64,000 nucleotides of DNA from Punctularia strigosozonata HHB-11173 SS5 (Eukaryota; Basidiomycota; Agaricomycetes; Corticiales; Punctulariaceae). Made by a program: the position numbers and the translations under genes. The stretch is taken from the NCBI RefSeq assembly GCF_000264995.1, contig NW_006767440.1:1021788-1085787 (forward strand), in the 5' to 3' direction. This document shows positions 2,233 to 10,534 of this stretch, in pieces (position 1 is the stretch's first letter; each line of letters opens with the position of its first letter). Under the pieces are notes generated by a model that did not search any database, was not told the origin of the DNA, and saw only the letters and a program-made list of their open reading frames with translations.

Positions 2233-2395
2233 CGCTGATAGGGCCAGATCCTGCGCAGGTCCTGGTCGCGGTGACTGAGGTTGGAATGCGAGACGCGAAT
2301 GCAAACGGCGTCCCACGGTCGGAAATTTAAACTTATGTTCCACAGCACGGCTGTGAGGTGGGCATCTCCGGGGTACAGGGTTGTCCTTGGATAGA

Positions 2396-2637
2396 CTAAT
2401 CCGTGGACAGGCTCCTAATACCATCCGCTCGTACCGTGTCTCGCTCCTCAATCCTACTTGCGCGGGCGAGGCTGATTCCGAAAGGGAGAAGGGAAGTGAT
2501 GATCATGTGCAGCACTGGATTATGTCAGAGCCCTTAAGCGAGTTTCCTTTTATATCGGCGTAAGTGAGGAGCGGACACGGTAGAGCGGCTGGCCAAACTC
2601 GACATTTCAAATTACGGCAGGAGCTCGGCACACCTCG
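2396..2637 (+). repeat. left terminal inverted repeat of the gene-capture element
   Basis: About 242 bases, matching the reverse complement of 4098-4343 almost throughout. The outer limit is approximate: similarity fades at the GGAT near 2397. It starts 164 bases upstream of the PRO1 start codon, so it lies in or next to the PRO1 promoter. Confidence 0.75.
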
Positions 2638-2824
2638 CTACCACCCAACATAGGGTCTCGGCTAACATTAATCTTCTTGCTCTTTTCGTAGTTTTAGTTT
2701 CGCGATGAATATACCGTCAAATGCATGATACATCCACGCTCCAGGGTCAAAAGTGCTCCCCGGGATTTGACTGCCAAGTGTATTGACATATGATATAGCT
2801 GTTGATCTGTCCTGTCTGGAGTGA

Positions 2825-3358
2825 GGACAGCGGAGACAGGACCGCCGGCTCGCGCGCGCGGATAACCTGGCGCAGCACGCGAGGACGCACGCGCGTGCGG
2901 ATGCGGAGGGCGTCGCGCACGTCGACAACGGGGTGTATGCGCACGAGCCGGAGGACCCGCGTGCGGACGAGGCCGACGTCGATTCGGAGGATGAGATTTA
3001 TGCGCAGCAACAGCAGCAACAACAGCAACAGCAACAGTACGCGACGTCCTTCGGCGTACCGAGTCAGGCGCAGGTCCAAGGTCAGGGGATGGCGTCCGAC
3101 TGGGTGCAGACCGCCTTCCCCGGCGCGGCGGCTACGGCTGCCGCCGTTCCGCCCGCGGTCGCCCACCTCCGCCACGGCAGCGGCGTCTCGTCCTCCTCGC
3201 TCGGCTCCACCAACTCGCTGCAGCTGCACTACCGGTACCTCTCGCCCGACTCGGCCTCGTCGCTCTCCGCGCCGTCGACCACGATTGCGCCCGTCCGCTT
3301 GTCGAGCCTGAACCGGAGCCCGTCAAGCTTGTGCCGGATGGTGTCGACGTCGTCGTAG
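2825..3358 (+). pseudogene. captured fragment of a C2H2 zinc-finger transcription factor
   Basis: The plus frame reads RLARADNLAQHARTHARADA, the helix and H-x3-H half of a C2H2 finger of the FSRADNLAQHxRTH type found in fungal Msn2-like regulators. An acidic stretch, an 11-residue polyglutamine run (3007-3039) and a Ser/Ala-rich region follow. A TGA at 2822-2824 lies just before it and the Cys pair of the finger is missing, so this is a gene piece and not a working gene. The tail of the frame past about 3250 overlaps the next fragment on the other strand. Confidence 0.55.
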
Positions 3359-3560
3359 GGCAGGAGAAGATCACCGAAGCCGGAGCGCGAGGTGAGCGAG
3401 ATGATTGCCACGATCGACCCTGGCGGGGCAGTTAGGTGCAAGCCCATCCTAGCGCGTCGGTGCAGGATGTGGACGACGATGCCGATGATGCCGATAAGTC
3501 CGAGAGCCGCTGCCAGGCCATGTGCAGCGAGTTCACTGCGAACAATTGACCTACGTACAA
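3229..3560 (-). pseudogene. captured fragment of a fungal multi-pass membrane protein
   Basis: The minus frame gives a hydrophobic segment (AALGLIGIIGIVVHIL) followed by PPGSIVAIISLTSRSGFGDL and KLDGLRFRLDKRTGAIVVD. The SRSGFG...LRFRLDKRTGAI pattern matches the C-terminal end of large unnamed membrane proteins common in Agaricomycetes, as I recall them. It has no start or full domain here. It is joined upstream to an unrelated SAC3-type piece near 3540-3560. Confidence 0.5.
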
Positions 3561-3742
3561 TGTTAATTCTGGACATTTGCTCGAGTCAGTGGAGGTCATA
3601 TCATGAACAAGTACAACACACCGCTGCGGTTTTGACCGTGGAGCAGCATTAAAATCCGGTACGCGGTGAACTCCTCCACTTTGCCAGGGATGCCGAGCTC
3701 GTAGAGCCCGCGGAGCATCGTCTGACAAGCGTTGTATTCAAC
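3540..3742 (-). pseudogene. captured fragment of a SAC3/GANP-domain (Thp3/LENG8-like) gene
   Basis: The minus strand reads VEYNACQTMLRGLYELGIP then VEEFTAYRILMLLHGQNRS, matching the SAC3/GANP segment of Thp3/LENG8-type mRNA-processing proteins (EYNxCQTxLxxLY ... EFxAYRILYxLHxxNR). A GT-AG intron-like stretch separates it from ELTLYVGQL, the next SAC3 piece, so intron sequence appears to have been captured with the exons. That points to DNA-level capture. Only about 50 residues are present. Confidence 0.55.
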
Positions 3743-3829
3743 CATGTCCCTCTGTTCTCATGGATCGCCGACGGGAACAGTACCTGTACGTCGATCCCGA
3801 TCGCGAGCGGGGACGAGAGCGCGATAAGA

Positions 3830-3956
3830 AAGCGGGCCAGAGCAAGCGATTCTTGGATTCTTGGATATGGACGACCACGCGCGGAGGGCTGCGGCCGCAC
3901 TGGAGAACATGGATGACCCGGAGGCGGCGAGGAAGATCGGATACGACAACGATTAG
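3830..3956 (+). pseudogene. captured C-terminal exon of an unknown gene
   Basis: The plus frame from about 3830 reads ESGPEQAILGFLDMDDHAR then RAAAALENMDDPEAARKIGY and DND, followed by TAG at 3954-3956. Its codon use and acidic tail look like a real C-terminus. A GTT/GGT simple repeat (about 3978-4022) follows. I do not recognise the family. The opposite orientation to the SAC3 piece argues for an independent capture. Confidence 0.35.
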
Positions 3957-4097
3957 AGGCAGGCGGACTGAAGGGTGTTGTTGTTGTTAGTGGTGGTGGT
4001 GGTGGTGGTGGTGGCAGCGTGGTGGCGGCAAAGTGCAGTGGGTCTATTTCGCTGTGCAGAATAATCCAAGCCCTAGGTTGAGTGTTGCTGAGAAACT

Positions 4098-4343
4098 GAG
4101 GTGTGCCGAGTTGTGCCGTAATTTGAAATGTCGAGTTTGGCCAGCCGCTCTACCGTGTCCGCTCCTCACTTACGCCGATATAAAAGGAAGGTCCCTAATC
4201 CCAATTTGGATCTGACATAATACATGTCTTAATATGGATACTAACTCCCATCCCTCTCGGATTCAGCCTTGCCCACGCAAATAGGATTGAGGAGCGAGAC
4301 ACGGTACGAGCGGATGGTATTAGGAGCCTGATCCGTGGATAAC
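4098..4343 (-). repeat. right terminal inverted repeat of the gene-capture element
   Basis: Inverted copy of the left arm. It contains small indels relative to the left arm, for example around 4196-4235, so the arms have diverged somewhat. Its outer end runs directly into ATCCGCGGATACG-type repeats of the next element. Confidence 0.75.
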
Positions 4344-5140
4344 CGCGGATACGAACCGTTTCGCACGGATACAATTCGGATCGGATTAGTTCTCACGGAT
4401 TACGGTGTCGCGCTGATATCGTACCATCCGTGTTCAACTCGGGTTTCTGGTGTCCCGTGCACTCTCTGACTGTTCACTTGTACCTACGAAAGCATTGTGA
4501 ACGACAGTCATTGGTCCACCCTGGACCTGTCTATGTCAAGGAATTCACCTCCTGAATCGCCTGTATCATTATCCCATGCACTTTCGCCATCACCAAGCTC
4601 TTCTTCGCAATTCTCATCCAAACGAGCTTCCGACGCATTATCACGGCAACACTCCCAGACTGACGAGAATGACAAACAGGCAACTGTCGAGCCGTCACAT
4701 AAGAGGAGAAAGCGGACAAAATCTGGCCTATACAGCGAGAGTACTGAACAGGTTTGGGGCAAACCTGACTCGGAAATCATTGGTACGCAATCCAGTTGCA
4801 GAGCCTGCGTGCTAGAGTTGCCGTAGGTTCCTGGGTAGAGGCTCCTTGGTTTGATCTCGAAGAGACTACACGACTCGTAGACGACACGTCACAACCACTG
4901 AGAGGGTGACTTATCACTCAATCTCCGTGAACTCCCCTTAGATTCACTATACTATAGACCTTACATGTCGCATCTACTCTACACTCCATACATAGACCCT
5001 CAGATTCGATGTAATCTAGCGTACATACCTAGTATCCGTATGGATGTCACAATCCGCGGTATCCGCACGGATTGAATCCGCGCAGATATTGACCCGTGAA
5101 TGTTTCGGCGGATGGATACGGATCATATCCGGATTCATCC
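4344..5140 (+). mobile_element. decayed hAT-like sequence with subterminal CCGCGGAT/CGCACGGAT repeats
   Basis: Both ends carry repeated, often inverted ATCCGCGG, CGCACGGAT and GGATACGGAT words (about 4340-4430 and 5030-5140), the arrangement of hAT subterminal repeats in basidiomycetes. Inside, a plus frame from about 4497 to 4780 gives a Ser-rich, basic stretch with KRRKRTKSGLYSE, which resembles the disordered N-terminus of hAT transposases. No catalytic domain is present. It may instead be an extension of the neighbouring TIR element. Confidence 0.35.
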
Positions 5141-5564
5141 AGGGAAAAGCCTGCCGGGGTAGACACCCGAGCCGCCGTGGACAGAAGAGTAAACATCGCC
5201 AACCCATGCCAATCCCTGGCTTATGGCGAACCATCTCCTGTCAAGAACAAGCCATTACATATCGATCTGCAAGCCTGAGTTTGTCTTGGAGTATCTTCGA
5301 CTCGACCTTTGTGTAGCTCGGTGAGTGCTAAGCTCTTTTTTTCTGTATGGCTATCGCCTTGTTATGAATGGATTGCAGGCGCGGCGACTGGCGGGGCCTC
5401 ATATACGTTGGAGGCTGGTCGATGCGAGTTGCGCATTTCTTATCACAGCGATAGACACCGTGTAGTAGATACAGCACACAAATACATACTGCACAGGCAA
5501 AAGGCACATACACTGGGCGTAGACGACCACTGTTACAGTGGTGGTCACTGGTTCGCGAGCTCAC
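5141..5564. other. intergenic, no gene seen
   Basis: Lies between the hAT-like remnant and the stop codon of the minus-strand pseudokinase. Open frames here are short and lack recognisable motifs. It probably holds the 3' untranslated region of the kinase gene. Confidence 0.5.
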
Positions 5565-6952
5565 TTATGATGTCGGCGTGGCAATACCTCCTCTGACACT
5601 CGCACTCCTTCGAGGTACCACATCCTGTACCCGGATCCAATCTCCGCCTATATCTTCGAGAGCGTCGACAACAAAGCTCATTGAGGGTCGCATCGCCGGT
5701 TCCGTTGCCCAGCACAGCTCCAGCAAGCGCCAAAGTCGATCAGATATGAGTTCGGCGTGGGGCCGAAGGACATATGGCGCGGCGGGTCTTTCCGGCTTTC
5801 CTCCTCGCGTCAGATGCCTTATAACTTCGTACTCGCTGTCAAGGTTGGGGAAAGGGGCCAATAGCGTGAATGCCTAAGAAGCTTGTCAGATCAGTCAATG
5901 ATTAAACTGTGGGTCATGCTCGCCTCGAGACATGTGCATGCAAATGACCAAACGTCGCTGGCGATGGTATATTGCCTGAACTCAGGAAGAAATGCTTCCG
6001 GTGCTGTCCACTCGCAGGCTAGCTGTGCGGTCCTTCTTTGCGGGCTACCGTCGCCGACGATAGCGGCAAAATCGAACCCTGCTAAGCGTGCGTGCTTCCA
6101 GCGATCCACGTATATGTACCACTGTATCGGCGTGATTTAGTTTCGTTATCAGTCAAAGCTACATCAACGCACACCGCGAAGGTTTCCATGAACGATGGAT
6201 TCTGAATGCAGATACTGGAGTGCTTCGGCCGCCTCCAGGAGCTGGTTTATTGTTCAGCCGACGATGCCTGGTAACGAAGACGATGACTGCACCAATCTGT
6301 GAATCTTCGCATTCCCGACTCTCTGTCTGTCGATGTACTCGACCAAGTTGCCATTGTTCATCCAAGGTGTGACGGTTACTGTCCATACCGCGGGGTCGAA
6401 CGTACCAACATCCAGCCCGGTGAGAGGCAAAACGTGAGGATGTTCGGCGGCTTTCCATACGAGCATAGCATGGATGAATCGCTGTGGAAATATTTAGCGC
6501 CGAAATACAGACGCGCGAATGTTGTAGGAGGCGCGACCTTCTTCGTCGTGTGGTAATCCGAGTACCGTTTCAGTGCCACCACGCGACTCTGTAGCAGGCC
6601 TTTGTGGATATCTGCCCATATTCCGGAACGCGGGTACTCCGGAGTGCGCTGGATTCCGCGGACGCAAAGTGCGGCAGGTAAATGGCGAGAGTGGTGTATC
6701 AACTCGGTCAGCACCGCGATGAAGTGTTTCTTCTGCGTTGGATTTGGCGGTGGGAATGAGTGAAGGAGTATCTAGGGCCGCAAGATGAGACTCCCATTGC
6801 ACGGCATATAGGATATAACACACTTCGCACACGAAGTCGATGAGCTTTCCTGCGTCACTACGAGTGATACAGAGCCGCAATGGAGCTTCCACGATGACAT
6901 ATTTGACTTGGATATCCAGCTCGGTAAAGAACAAGATTGGATCATATTCCAT
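5565..6952 (-). CDS. TKL-family pseudokinase (probably the C-terminal half of a tandem kinase)
   Basis: Spliced exons give a kinase fold: IWADIHKGLLQSRVVALKRY (glycine loop and VAIK lysine), VTPWMNNGNLVEYI (hinge), ALQYLHSESIVHGNLRG (catalytic loop), VDRWKHARLAGFDFA (DFG region), ACEWTAPEAF (APE), ASDVWSFACTCLEA and WATEPAMRPSMSFVVDALED. Introns are read at about 6257-6301 and 6122-6170. In the catalytic loop Asp is Asn (HGNL in place of HGDL), and the DFG site reads GFD, so phosphotransfer is unlikely. VAIK Lys is kept. The Met at 6952 could be a start, but a 64-base intron (6955-7018) joins it in frame to the kinase upstream. Agaricomycetes have large TKL expansions, and the target is unknown. 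Confidence 0.7.
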
Positions 6953-7010
6953 AGCTGAACATGTGAGAGTAAAGTATCATGAGTAGATGTGTATACCATG
7001 GAGCATGTGA

Positions 7011-8448
7011 TCACTCACCGATCTCAAGGATGTCGTCTGCTCCCCATCCGAAGTCGACGGACTCAGGGTGCACCAGCGCAGTCCCGGTTGCGATCTCGTC
7101 AAGCGGGCTCTGCCTCAGCATGTCAACCATTACCTCGGATACCTGCTTAGCGGTAGGTCTTCTAGCCGCATCCGAGTCCCAACACTGATCGGTAAGGTCC
7201 CATATAGAATCAATCGTAGATGCTCCGAGGTCGAGCTGAGATGGCCTGGTAAGACGTCGACCTCTACTTATCGCAAAAACGACTTGATGGTCGTATGCTA
7301 TGTCGGGGAAAGGGTGTTGCCGTGTGAATGCCTACAGATTCATCGATGAATCGCCTAGGCCGTGTGACAATGGCAGCATACCTCCAAGCAAAGGCAGCCA
7401 AAAGCGTAAACATCGGTTTGGGTGTTTCGTACAGCGTCAAGGAATAATTCCGGCGCGTTCCATCGCCATGATCCAGTAGTCCTGGTGGCGTTCGAGGTTA
7501 TGCCCGTTCCCTCTGCCATTAGCGACAGTCCAAAATCTGCAAGTTGCGCATGCTTCCCGGTGTCGATGAGAATATTGCTCTGACAAGATCGTCGATAAGT
7601 ACACGTCCAATTTTTGGTCCACAAACCGACTTACACATCGTAGATCACCGTGTACGATGGATTGTGAGTGGAGGTAATGCAGCCCTTGCGCCGTCTCCGA
7701 GAGCTGTTCGTGCTATCAGTCCAGCCACGGGGCATTGATGACGGACTTCAGTGCAACGTACCAAACGCTTGAGCTCAGCCGGTCGAAGATCCTCCTTGAT
7801 GATGAAGTTGAGCATATTCCCGTTCTCCATCCATGGAGATACCATAGACGTGTGTGCAATCACTGACACGTCACTGGCTTCTAGGCCCAAAAACGGGAGA
7901 ACATTGGAATGTTGAAGATAGTGCCAGTTGATGACCTCTCTGCAAAGTTTTTCAACCAGTACATCTTTCTGGGTCCCGTCCCAGACGCGTAGACGTTTCA
8001 GGGCGACCCTTCTCCCGTGGTAGACACCTTCGTATATGTCCGCGAATCCGCCGAATGCGACGGCGTTGGGAGATACCGAGTCAACCGTGACAAATAAGGA
8101 GGAGGGAAGGTGATCGAAGGTTCGAGCGAGTTTCACAATCAGTTTACTCAGTTGAGTGCGGAACCCAACCTCAGTCCCGTCGTTCCAGATAGTCGTGTTG
8201 GTAAGGGCCTGAAACAAGAGTCGGATACTATGGCAATGAGAATGGACGCGCTATCTCACACGATACAGGCTGTCGATCAACCTCGGCGCTTCTACTCGAG
8301 ATATCAAAACATCATTTGCCCTGTCGCCGCGCCGCAAGTGATCCCCAATGATCACCGAGGACAAGATGTCCAGTTCCTTATCGTTCAACTCTGGAGATGA
8401 CTCATGAGAAGAAGTTCGAGTATGACCATAATGGGTGTGATTCACCAA
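7011..8448 (-). CDS. TKL-family protein kinase (probably the N-terminal half of a tandem kinase)
   Basis: Starts at 8448 (MVNHTHYGHTRTSS) and is joined through an intron at about 8208-8256 to ALTNTTIWND. Motifs in order: FGGFADIYEGVYHGRRVALK (glycine loop, Lys), VSPWMENGNMLNFI (hinge), GLHYLHSQSIVHGDLRC (catalytic Asp present), NILIDTGKHAQLADFGLS (DFG intact), SWRWNAPELF (APE), TDVYAFGCLCLEV and WDSDAARRPTAKQVSEVM. HGDL in place of HRDL is usual for Agaricomycete TKL kinases. The frame can stop at TGA 7011-7013, but that TGA lies inside a strong GTGAGT donor, and splicing there reads through into the pseudokinase. Substrate unknown. Confidence 0.75.
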
Positions 8449-9054
8449 TGGTGACTGTATCCTGTGTCTCCGATTGCACGTACACCCAAGGACTCGGATC
8501 TGTACTAGATACTACTCCATCTTGAGAGAGCCCGTTCTCCTGACTCATATTGAGTATTTCAAGGGTAAATAGAGCACGCCGGACGATAGCATTAGGACGT
8601 TAAGAGGAGCTATCGTCGCCAGTATGGATGTAGCATGAGATCAAAGCGAGGTCCGGGGCATCAACGCCCGTAGCATACAGGGGGCGGCTGTGCTTGGGCG
8701 TTTGTCTCTGGCTCCGTTGATGACCGAGCCAATGCCACGACGCTTTGTTCGCTCCAGGATTCGGGAACTGGACCACTTGGACTTTTCGAGACCCAAAATA
8801 CTCTACAGAAAACCTCATTACGACATGACCGTTCTCGACGTTACGCCTATTCATGTCCGAATCAAAAGTTCACGCTCTGATAGCTCTTGCTCTTACTCTA
8901 ACCGCGACTTTCAGCTGATCGGAATCCTCAGATCGGCATGATCCGGATGTCCTTCTGACTCGAGCCAACACAGCACGAGAGTTATGGCACCTCTACGGCC
9001 TCCGCCCGTGGGGAAAGGGCGCCGCGTGCATAGGCCCAATGGCGCCCGACGGCG
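8449..9054. other. intergenic, no gene seen
   Basis: Separates the divergent kinase gene from the duplicated promoter of the PB1 gene. Short open frames on both strands have no recognisable motif. From about 8985 the composition becomes GC-rich. Confidence 0.45.
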
Positions 9055-9326
9055 CCCGCGCAGGCCGCCGATGGGTATCTTCTGCTCCAAACGGAAGGAG
9101 CAGGCAGACGAGGCCGCCGGACGGCCGCCTTATGGCGTCGCCGTGCCCTCTATGAAGTTGCCCGAAGGTTACCTGAGCTCGCGCTATAAACCCGCGCTGG
9201 CCGCCGATGGGTATCTTCTGCTCCAAACGGAAGGAGCAGGCAGACGAGGCCGCCGGTCGGCCGCCTTATGGCGTCGCCGTGCCCTCTATGAAGTTGCCCG
9301 AAGGTTACCTGAGCTCGCGCTATAAA
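9055..9326 (+). promoter_or_regulatory. tandemly duplicated core promoter, two 136-base units, each ending in a TATA box
   Basis: Units 9055-9190 and 9191-9326 differ at only two or three positions. Each contains GCCGATGGGTATCTTCTGCT, a long GC-rich middle and CTCGCGCTATAAA at its end. The TATA boxes are at 9185-9190 and 9321-9327, exactly one period apart. The second lies 47 bases before the PB1 gene ATG, fitting a short leader. Very high identity implies a recent duplication or gene conversion. Confidence 0.75.
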
Positions 9327-9373
9327 AGCAGGCTCGGATACCGCTCTCCAACATCCAGTTCAGGATATTCGCA

Positions 9374-10534
9374 ATGCCTTGCAACTTCAAGTTCACCAAC
9401 ACTCACTCTCCTACTCGCACCGCTACCTTCTCCAGCCCCCCTCGCTGGAGCGTACTCGCGGAGAAGCTCGCAAATCTGTACAGTATCCCCGCGTCCAGCG
9501 TGGGCGTCACGTATCGCGACTCGGAGGGCGACGAGGTCACTCTCAACTCTGAGGAAGAGCTCGCCGATTTCTATCTCACTTCCCTTCCCAAAGGTCAAAC
9601 CATCCTATTCAACGTCGTCGAACTCGGTCAGGAGCCTGCCAGCACAGAGAGCCGAGCACGCTCTGTGACGCTTGATGATGACGGCGTGAAATTCAACGAG
9701 GAAGATCTCATGGAGATGGACGAAGGCATTGAGAAGCTTGACATCGAGTCCGAGTCGAGCGATGACGAGTCGGAGTCAGCTGCTGGCGATGCCCCGCCGG
9801 AGGGCACCACTCGCAGTGGAAGCGCCGTCACGACGGTCGTATATGAGGTTATGGCCGACGGAGCGCGCCGCATGGCCGAGGACGACGCCGCTCCCCGTAC
9901 TCGCGACACCGATAATGATCCCCGTGCGCTGTGGGCCGAGATGATGTTCGGCCGCCATGCCCACGGCATGTTCTGCAGAGGACGTGGAGGACATGGACGA
10001 GGCGGCGGACGCGGACGCGGCGGGTACCACGTGCACCAATCCATGCACCTCCTCCATCGCATGCGCCCCAACGAGCCATTCCAACAACCCCCGGCGCCGC
10101 CAGCATTCGGCATGCCGCACGGGGGACCCGCACCCTTCTGGCGACCGCCCTTCGGTCCGGATCAGCACGCGCCGTTCCCGCCTCACGCGCCCTTCAACGA
10201 ATTCCATGGTCCGGGTCATGTACTGCCTGATATGCCTCCTCACCATCATGCGCACGGATTCCCCTTTGGTCCAGGCCCTCGTGAAGGTTTCGACACTCGA
10301 GGACGCGGTCGGGGCATGCACGGCCGGGGCGGCGCGCATCACCACCGCTTCCACCCGTTCTTCCGCGGATTCGATGGGGATGCAACCCACGGCGGACCAA
10401 CTCGCCCTGGTCCTGGTGCCCGTCACCACCATGGTCATCACCACCGCGGCCGTGGCGGATTCACGCCGCCTTGCGCACGCTTCGAAATATCTTCGCCTCA
10501 CCCCCATCTATCCATGCCCCCGTTATGCTCTTGA
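9374..10534 (+). CDS. PB1-domain protein with RGG- and His-rich tail
   Basis: Single exon, 386 residues. Residues 1-85 form a PB1 (Phox/Bem1) fold: MPCNFKFTN basic strand, then WSVLAEKLANLYSIP, VTYRDSEGDEVTLNSEEEL (the acidic OPCA-type motif) and a last strand TILFNVVEL. Residues 100-165 are acidic and serine-rich. After about 200 the protein is low complexity, with GRGGHGRGGGRGRGG and other RG repeats, Pro/Phe-rich stretches and His clusters. PB1 domains pair with other PB1 proteins, and RGG tracts bind RNA or drive condensation, so a scaffold role is inferred. No known full-length homologue comes to mind. It is driven by the duplicated TATA promoter. Confidence 0.75.
   Translation: MPCNFKFTNTHSPTRTATFSSPPRWSVLAEKLANLYSIPASSVGVTYRDSEGDEVTLNSEEELADFYLTSLPKGQTILFNVVELGQEPASTESRARSVTLDDDGVKFNEEDLMEMDEGIEKLDIESESSDDESESAAGDAPPEGTTRSGSAVTTVVYEVMADGARRMAEDDAAPRTRDTDNDPRALWAEMMFGRHAHGMFCRGRGGHGRGGGRGRGGYHVHQSMHLLHRMRPNEPFQQPPAPPAFGMPHGGPAPFWRPPFGPDQHAPFPPHAPFNEFHGPGHVLPDMPPHHHAHGFPFGPGPREGFDTRGRGRGMHGRGGAHHHRFHPFFRGFDGDATHGGPTRPGPGARHHHGHHHRGRGGFTPPCARFEISSPHPHLSMPPLCS

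Follow-up and report, generated by a model that had tools for sequence, protein, structure and literature searches.

Transposons with terminal inverted repeats (TIRs) are documented to shuffle gene fragments at scale in plants and, more recently, in animals, and Pack-type elements, which hold host sequence between such repeats, are well known in both groups and little described in fungi. A single Pack-type Mutator-like element (Pack-MULE) can hold pieces of several genes. Here we describe an element of this kind in a 64,000-nucleotide stretch of the basidiomycete Punctularia strigosozonata HHB-11173 SS5 (contig NW_006767440.1, positions 1,021,788 to 1,085,787; C8:1021788-1085787 in our contig labels), hereafter the window. 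We consider it very probable that window positions 2408-4330 are a non-autonomous Pack-type TIR transposon, most likely a MULE, whose interior holds copied pieces of four unlinked genes and which seems to have been loaded before it landed.

Among the matches listed in our literature search, the fungal cases in print are either transduplications of a single gene or genes that adjoin MULEs (papers are cited here for their matched passages). An open reading frame (ORF) in a fungal Tc1/mariner element is also among the reported transduplications (PMC3538342, PMC6710886), and a MULE-associated gene expansion is described in Rhizophagus (PMC8647823). In their matched passages, a kingdom-wide screen (PMC10799480) and a survey of transposable elements in a wheat pathogen (PMC4522978) mention Pack-MULEs as plant background only. 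No fungal MULE-type element with pieces of several host genes appeared among the matches, which cover the open-licence literature and leave most subscription journals outside; this agrees with an earlier remark, in a preliminary description made from the window sequence, that such elements are rarely described in fungi.

Element boundaries and the empty site

The genome searched comprises 33.57 Mb in 32 contigs; searches scored the best candidates only and the assembly contains several N stretches, so that all copy counts given below are lower bounds. Its numerous KDZ transposase matches, a STE gene with C2H2 fingers, and short introns are in keeping with a basidiomycete. The element spans 1923 bp and is flanked directly, at both ends, by a perfect 9-bp target-site duplication, ATCCGTGGA, located at 2399-2407 on the left and 4331-4339 on the right. 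The preliminary description had placed the element at 2396-4343; it had recognized a real element, and the extra length corresponds to the duplication and a few flanking bases. The outermost 13 bases at both ends are CAGGCTCCTAATA, and each element end carries a 33-bp terminus that is seen nowhere else in the window (chance expectation, 0.00). The left TIR, which begins CAGGCTCCTAATACCATCCGC, occupies 2408-2636 (plus strand), as delimited by the arm alignment and by the same terminus at other loci. It is followed by a left subterminal sequence (2637-2810, plus strand) which, under lenient scoring, is common to family members on contigs C15, C14, and C1; with this scoring, element positions 1-403 match the C15 copy at 75% and the C14 copy at 70%, and positions 1-382 match the C1 copy at 81%. 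The right end, comprising the TIR and a subterminal part, lies at 4062-4330 (minus strand; element positions 1655-1923) and matches the C15 copy at 90% and the C14 copy at 82%.

The inverted arms are approximately 230-247 bp long and share 206/247 identities in a gapped alignment (83%, E = 5e-63), which bears out the repeats of about 245 bases given in the preliminary description. A separate repeat search matched 2408-2487 with 4251-4330 (94%) and 2537-2619 with 4114-4196 (96%), and in the gapped alignment the arms diverge mostly in a mid-arm stretch of about 60 bp. A composite of two solo mini-elements was rejected based on the shared outer termini of the arms, the single outer duplication, and the same design in other copies.

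The Pack element is nested in a young, non-autonomous hAT-like element located at 2376-5153. The latter is flanked by an identical 8-bp target-site duplication, CCGGGGTA, at 2368-2375 and 5154-5161. Its left end (CAGGGTTGTCC...; 2376-2407, plus strand) matches a copy on C10 that has no insert, and its remainder (4340-5153, plus strand) is 99% identical to C10:759903-760639. This second copy, the only one found in the genome besides that of the window, is 99% identical except for about 83 bp missing from it, and is flanked by a perfect 8-bp duplication with a sequence of its own, gagcagtg. With the window flanks joined across a single ATCCGTGGA, the C10 hAT copy aligns straight through the junction and thus represents an exact empty site, in which the 9-bp sequence is single. 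The two hAT copies differ at 2/190 and 4/576 columns (6/766). The hAT duplication is usually 8 bp, as found at the enclosing element, and the Pack element has 9 bp. Together, the 9-bp duplication and the empty site at C10 show that the element was inserted as a unit; whether it was already loaded by then is judged from the dating presented below.

Cargo pieces, donor loci and timing of capture

A whole-genome DNA search matched the four cargo pieces, which add up to approximately 1135 bp, to continuous loci on four other contigs (C12, C10, C11, and C20), and each piece has a single other long match in the genome. The pieces, referred to as A to D from left to right, are 94%, 91%, 98%, and 92% identical to their donors, respectively, and their orientations relative to the donor frames are plus, minus, minus, and plus. 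Pieces of four unrelated genes in mixed orientation had been proposed from the window alone, and the search of this genome for intact donors placed them on different contigs rather than at one locus.

Piece A (2842-3281, plus strand) matches C12:238345-238784 in 418/446 columns. The donor locus harbors Pfam STE (E = 5.9e-49) and zf-C2H2 (E = 1.6e-9) matches, as expected of a STE12-type transcription factor, and the piece covers the end of the second C2H2 finger and the coding sequence after it; the C2H2 finger piece of the preliminary description thus includes no more of a finger than this end. A 34-bp CAG-type repeat inside piece A has a further match on C9. Piece B (3282-3538, antisense on the minus strand) is part of an unnamed gene and is 91% identical to C10:1545840-1546121 over 288 columns, and the 257 columns that start at 3282 contain 13 mismatches; the BLAST match begins 31 bp within piece A, and the boundary between the two was set by reading of the junction. 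Piece C (3546-3779, minus strand) is identical to C11:655808-656041 at 230/234 positions and covers, within a SAC3/GANP-like gene, the last part of one intron, an exon, the following intron in full (53 nt, GT..AG, 3569-3621), and the first part of the exon after it. The intron is real as initially described, and the family name is to be read with the donor's SAC3_GANP matches, E = 1.1e-5 and 4.9e-5, both of which fall under the Pfam curated cut-off. Piece D (3780-3983, plus strand) comes from the coding sequence of an unnamed gene, close to where its open frame ends; positions 3780-3970 match C20:231006-231188 in 176/191 columns, the strict match ending at 3970 and the last 13 bp, to 3983, being placed by a lenient alignment. 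This piece has acquired an 8-bp duplication, which causes a frameshift, and a Trp-to-stop change. Pieces B and D had been described as a membrane-protein C-terminus and a further C-terminal exon, respectively; both exist as pieces, and no Pfam family matched either donor frame. By reading, piece B has one hydrophobic stretch.

The remaining interior consists of filler. A 31-bp stretch at the left junction (2811-2841, plus strand) lies within a 71-bp query (2780-2850) that matches its own place only, a 7-nt sequence between pieces B and C (CGAACAA; 3539-3545, plus strand) is not in either donor at the junction, and a 78-bp stretch with TTG/TGG repeats to the right of piece D (3984-4061, plus strand) likewise matches only its own place in a genome search that skips simple repeats. 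Genome searches found no source for the left (31 bp) or the right (78 bp) filler. Reading of the junctions indicated 1-2 bp of homology between A and B, the 7-nt insertion between B and C, and a blunt joint between C and D; close to the end of D, 4 bp are deleted. Pieces A, B, and D are broken within open frames that run on in the donor, and piece C has one breakpoint in an intron and the other in an exon. Within the donor open frames, the pieces come from central or later parts, as far as these frames show. At E = 1e-3, the family arms have no match in the donor loci, which extend to 9.9 kb at most and are partly N; these loci contain six 11-mers with two or fewer mismatches to the terminus, none followed by the next motif.

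Retrocopies have their introns removed, and piece C keeps its 53-nt intron. The presence of this whole intron indicates that the source of the copy was DNA. None of the 3 MULE and 48 KDZ transposase matches of the genome lies inside the element, in a search that covered these two families, and the longest ORF of the element is 169 amino acids (the Pfam scan covered two of its frames), in line with the original observation that no transposase is present. Cargo-free family copies, donors without family arms, no MULE or KDZ transposase inside, and insertion as a unit are thus all found here, as in a Pack-type element.

Some frames stay open across piece junctions (2933-3358 on the plus strand and 3229-3576 on the minus strand), as might be seen at an ordinary host locus, such as a chimeric gene or tandem gene remnants, that mimics a transposon. 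The exact empty site refutes this reading, which is further opposed by the 9-bp duplication, the four donors on four contigs, the mixed orientation, and the frameshift and stop in piece D, and we give it a negligible probability. An assembly artefact fusing unrelated reads is equally far-fetched: the sequence has N stretches, several of which adjoin family ends, and set against this, the element itself is without N, its target-site duplication is perfect, and the pieces differ from the donors by 1.7-5.1% plus indels and are therefore not misplaced donor reads. It is probable that the chimeric cargo is decaying. Selection on the cargo, proposed from an excess of third-position differences, was dropped because constraint on the donors can explain that excess.

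Regarding the order of events, we compared the divergence of the pieces from their donors with that of the two hAT copies. Excluding indels, the pieces differ from the donors at 16/434 (A), 13/257 (B), 4/234 (C), and 7/183 (D) positions, which are homogeneous (p = 0.26) and total 40/1108 (3.6%). Provided that the element was never present in the C10 hAT copy, it landed after the two hAT copies had split, and the 6/766 differences between these copies are significantly fewer than those between pieces and donors (Fisher p = 5e-5). Because piece-donor divergence exceeds hAT-copy divergence, the sequences suggest that capture is older than the landing and that the loaded element moved here from elsewhere.

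It should be noted that several observations weigh against this order or against a loaded element that moves. Piece C alone (4/234) is not significantly different from the hAT copies (p = 0.26), and of the six differences between the hAT copies, one falls immediately outside the hAT end. Moreover, third positions account for 23/39 coding differences (p = 0.001 vs. one third), which fits constrained donors and implies that part of the divergence arose under selection, and the pieces may stem from a divergent donor allele. In addition, this cargo is present in one copy in the assembly. The single copy would also be expected if an unloaded family member had entered the hAT-like element first and the pieces had been copied in later by gap repair, so that the loaded element never moved. 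Junctions with little homology and with filler fit such gap repair, which accounts just as well for the duplication and the empty site. The younger age of the landing and the location of all four donors on other contigs, compared with 59.8% same-chromosome cases in animals (PMC8277862), speak against capture in place, and we regard it as unlikely.

Accepting that the element was loaded before it landed, its history could be as follows. A family element, of the kind represented by the cargo-free copies on C14 and C15, would have had its interior replaced by copies of four unlinked gene segments during break repair with repeated template switching, the donors remaining in place. The loaded element would then have been moved in trans by a transposase recognising its ends, presumably that of a MULE, and would have landed through a 9-bp staggered cut inside the young hAT-like element.

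Family copies and superfamily assignment

The arms occur in more than one place, contrary to the single occurrence that would have spoken against the preliminary description: arm queries found them at eleven further loci, including C5:7257-9089 and C10:22420, and the exact-terminus pattern occurs eight times in the genome, twice in the window element. The family ends are CAGGCTCCTAA. Six copies have two ends, namely the window element, those on C14, C15, and C9, and those at C8:92769-94450 (L059) and C3:876964-878711 (L060). Five of these six have 9-bp duplications, which are perfect in the window, C14, L059, and L060 copies and match at 8/9 positions in the C15 copy; the C9 copy has no recognisable 9-bp duplication. 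The inverted ends of L059 and L060 are about 440 bp long. Over their full length, the C15 and C14 copies are 82% identical. No MULE or KDZ match falls within the 614-bp interior of the former, which has its only other genome match at C14, suggesting that these two copies are free of gene pieces of known source. In addition, the C15 copy is nested in an element with a MULE+SWIM transposase, present in two copies (91-93% identity; L027, about 4255-9413, on C15, and L051, about 3984-6369, on C3), and the C3 copy of that element provides a second empty site.

Different cargo was seen once. The copy ending at C1:2372004 (L029:4075-5005) breaks off at element position 382 or thereabouts, where it adjoins a GH3 fragment (PF00933, E = 4.7e-15) that is identical to its donor, C18:97815-98357, at 519/543 positions. 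By reading, the frame of the C18 donor continues for approximately seven codons beyond the breakpoint and then runs into N. Only one end of this copy is visible, as the other lies in N, and it is probably a second loaded element. Other copies are less informative. The C10:1440382 and C1:4010052 copies are 99.7% identical over 361 bp and then continue as N. The C9 copy (L033:4799-5987) is degenerate, with an interior of abutting pieces of at least three other short repeats in which no host gene was seen. At C14, a family end near 646789 (L032:4137-5090) precedes a frame resembling a DEAD/DEAH helicase (E = 2.2e-5, below cut-off), a candidate for a further captured gene for which no donor was found in the genome; the stretch adjoining this frame has 27 further genome matches.

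Membership in the MULE superfamily is likely on structural grounds, and it is not proved because no transposase with the same ends was found. MULEs have duplications of 8-11 bp and ends that are commonly hundreds of base pairs long (PMC6446971), and the family described here combines 9-bp duplications in five of six two-ended copies with long inverted ends (230-247 bp, and about 440 bp in L059 and L060). The search for an autonomous relative, suggested at the outset, was unsuccessful: no transposase sharing the family ends was found in the genome, where some copy interiors are N, and the three MULE-domain matches belong to other elements, both of which count against the assignment. The MULE-domain element at C15 was rejected as the autonomous partner, since it is the host of the nested C15 copy and has different ends (36 bp, C15/C3 family); no inverted ends were found for the MULE match on C10. 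Separately, L059, L060, L030, and L031 have N interiors behind near-identical family ends, which may hide an autonomous copy.

The abundance of KDZ matches (48, vs. 3 for MULE) and the 5'-CA..TG-3' termini of the element, as in Kyakuja (PMC12730594), raise the alternative that it belongs to another superfamily with long duplications, e.g., KDZ (Zisupton/Kyakuja). In the matched passages of the same source, duplications are 8 bp in Zisupton and 7 bp in Kyakuja, and the described Kyakuja families are without inverted ends, as opposed to the 9-bp duplications and inverted ends of 230-440 bp found here. KDZ as the mover was therefore set aside, abundant as it is, for its unfit duplication length, and we consider assignment to such a superfamily rather improbable next to MULE membership. 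Helitrons have no inverted ends and make no target duplication, and the Pack element has both.

Each arm of the element contains an inverted repeat of its own, with halves at 2421-2450 (outer, plus strand) and 2565-2592 (inner) in the left arm, and at 4288-4317 and 4141-4168 in the right arm. The arm alignment takes in 14 arms (13 distinct), excluding the second, identical L059 arm, the C1:4010052 arm (99.7% like C10), C5:7257-9089, and C10:22420, and 27 pairs were drawn from the window arm. In these 27 pairs, 88.5% of cells are standard pairings, vs. 83.8 in shuffled alignments (0/500 shuffles reach the value), and compensating changes occur in 15 cells (shuffled mean 4.7; 0/500), spread over 7 pairs (8/500). 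Further pair types are no more numerous than in shuffles (289/500). Folding of the left arm beats 199/200 shuffles (z = -2.95), and RNAalifold unaided recovers 11 of the 27 pairs, one of them covarying. Slid controls were 30-45% paired, a type of control that a structure drawn from one aligned sequence tends to beat. Each arm may therefore represent two inverted copies of one recognition motif, or a hairpin, as the pairing data fit either. A scan for tRNA genes across the window was negative; by reading only, the cargo-free copies L027:4349-5646 and L028:4236-5592 have two stretches resembling tRNA A/B boxes, which are candidates.

Regarding the surroundings of the insertion, a gene on the minus strand at 408-2232, with AA_kinase and PUA domains and a likely start codon at 2230-2232, is likely to encode a glutamate 5-kinase-like protein, judging from its domains. 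This start codon lies about 145 bp from the hAT-like element and about 175 bp from the Pack element, both of which are on its upstream side. A 97-codon frame of the hAT-like element (4533-4826) has no Pfam match.

Comparison with known systems

Several described systems share part of this architecture. The hAT elements that transduplicated histone H3 in Pyrenophora and Mycosphaerellaceae also place a host gene within a fungal cut-and-paste transposon, and they carry one gene in 26 or 471 copies, as opposed to the four gene fragments and 9-bp duplications found here (PMC3538342, PMC6710886). Helitrons of Pleurotus ostreatus are likewise basidiomycete transposons with extra genes; they differ in being rolling-circle elements that make no target duplication, with no capture of fragments of the fungus's own genes reported in the matched passages (PMC4289320). 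MULEs with multiple TIRs resemble the present family in having more than one copy of the end motif per arm, although their second TIR is mostly in tandem (PMC3310237) and the motif is inverted within each arm here.

Animal Pack-TIRs are similar in that they hold host DNA between inverted ends, with short or no homology at the breakpoints and some breakpoint insertions (PMC8277862). For most single-copy animal cases an explanation without movement, transposition-independent gap filling, has been proposed (PMC8277862), whereas in the present element the four donors lie on other contigs and the evidence favors movement after loading. In the way it works, the element resembles the Pack-MULEs of rice and other plants, which are also non-autonomous, with long inverted ends, 8-11 bp duplications, and host gene fragments (PMC6446971). 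The differences are the fungal host, the cargo in one copy, the origin of the pieces in central or later parts of the donor frames, as far as these show, and a superfamily assignment that has no proof from an autonomous partner.

The element has four identifiable donors and a retained intron, its empty site is exact, and its capture and landing have been dated relative to each other. It offers a small and tractable fungal case for studying the mechanism of capture and the mobility of loaded elements. On balance, we lean toward the view that this basidiomycete genome has a working Pack-MULE system, in which one TIR family repeatedly copied unlinked gene fragments, including GH3, and an element loaded with pieces of four genes moved as a whole during the lifetime of a young hAT copy. 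If this is true, exon shuffling by cut-and-paste transposons works in mushroom-type fungi much as it does in plants.

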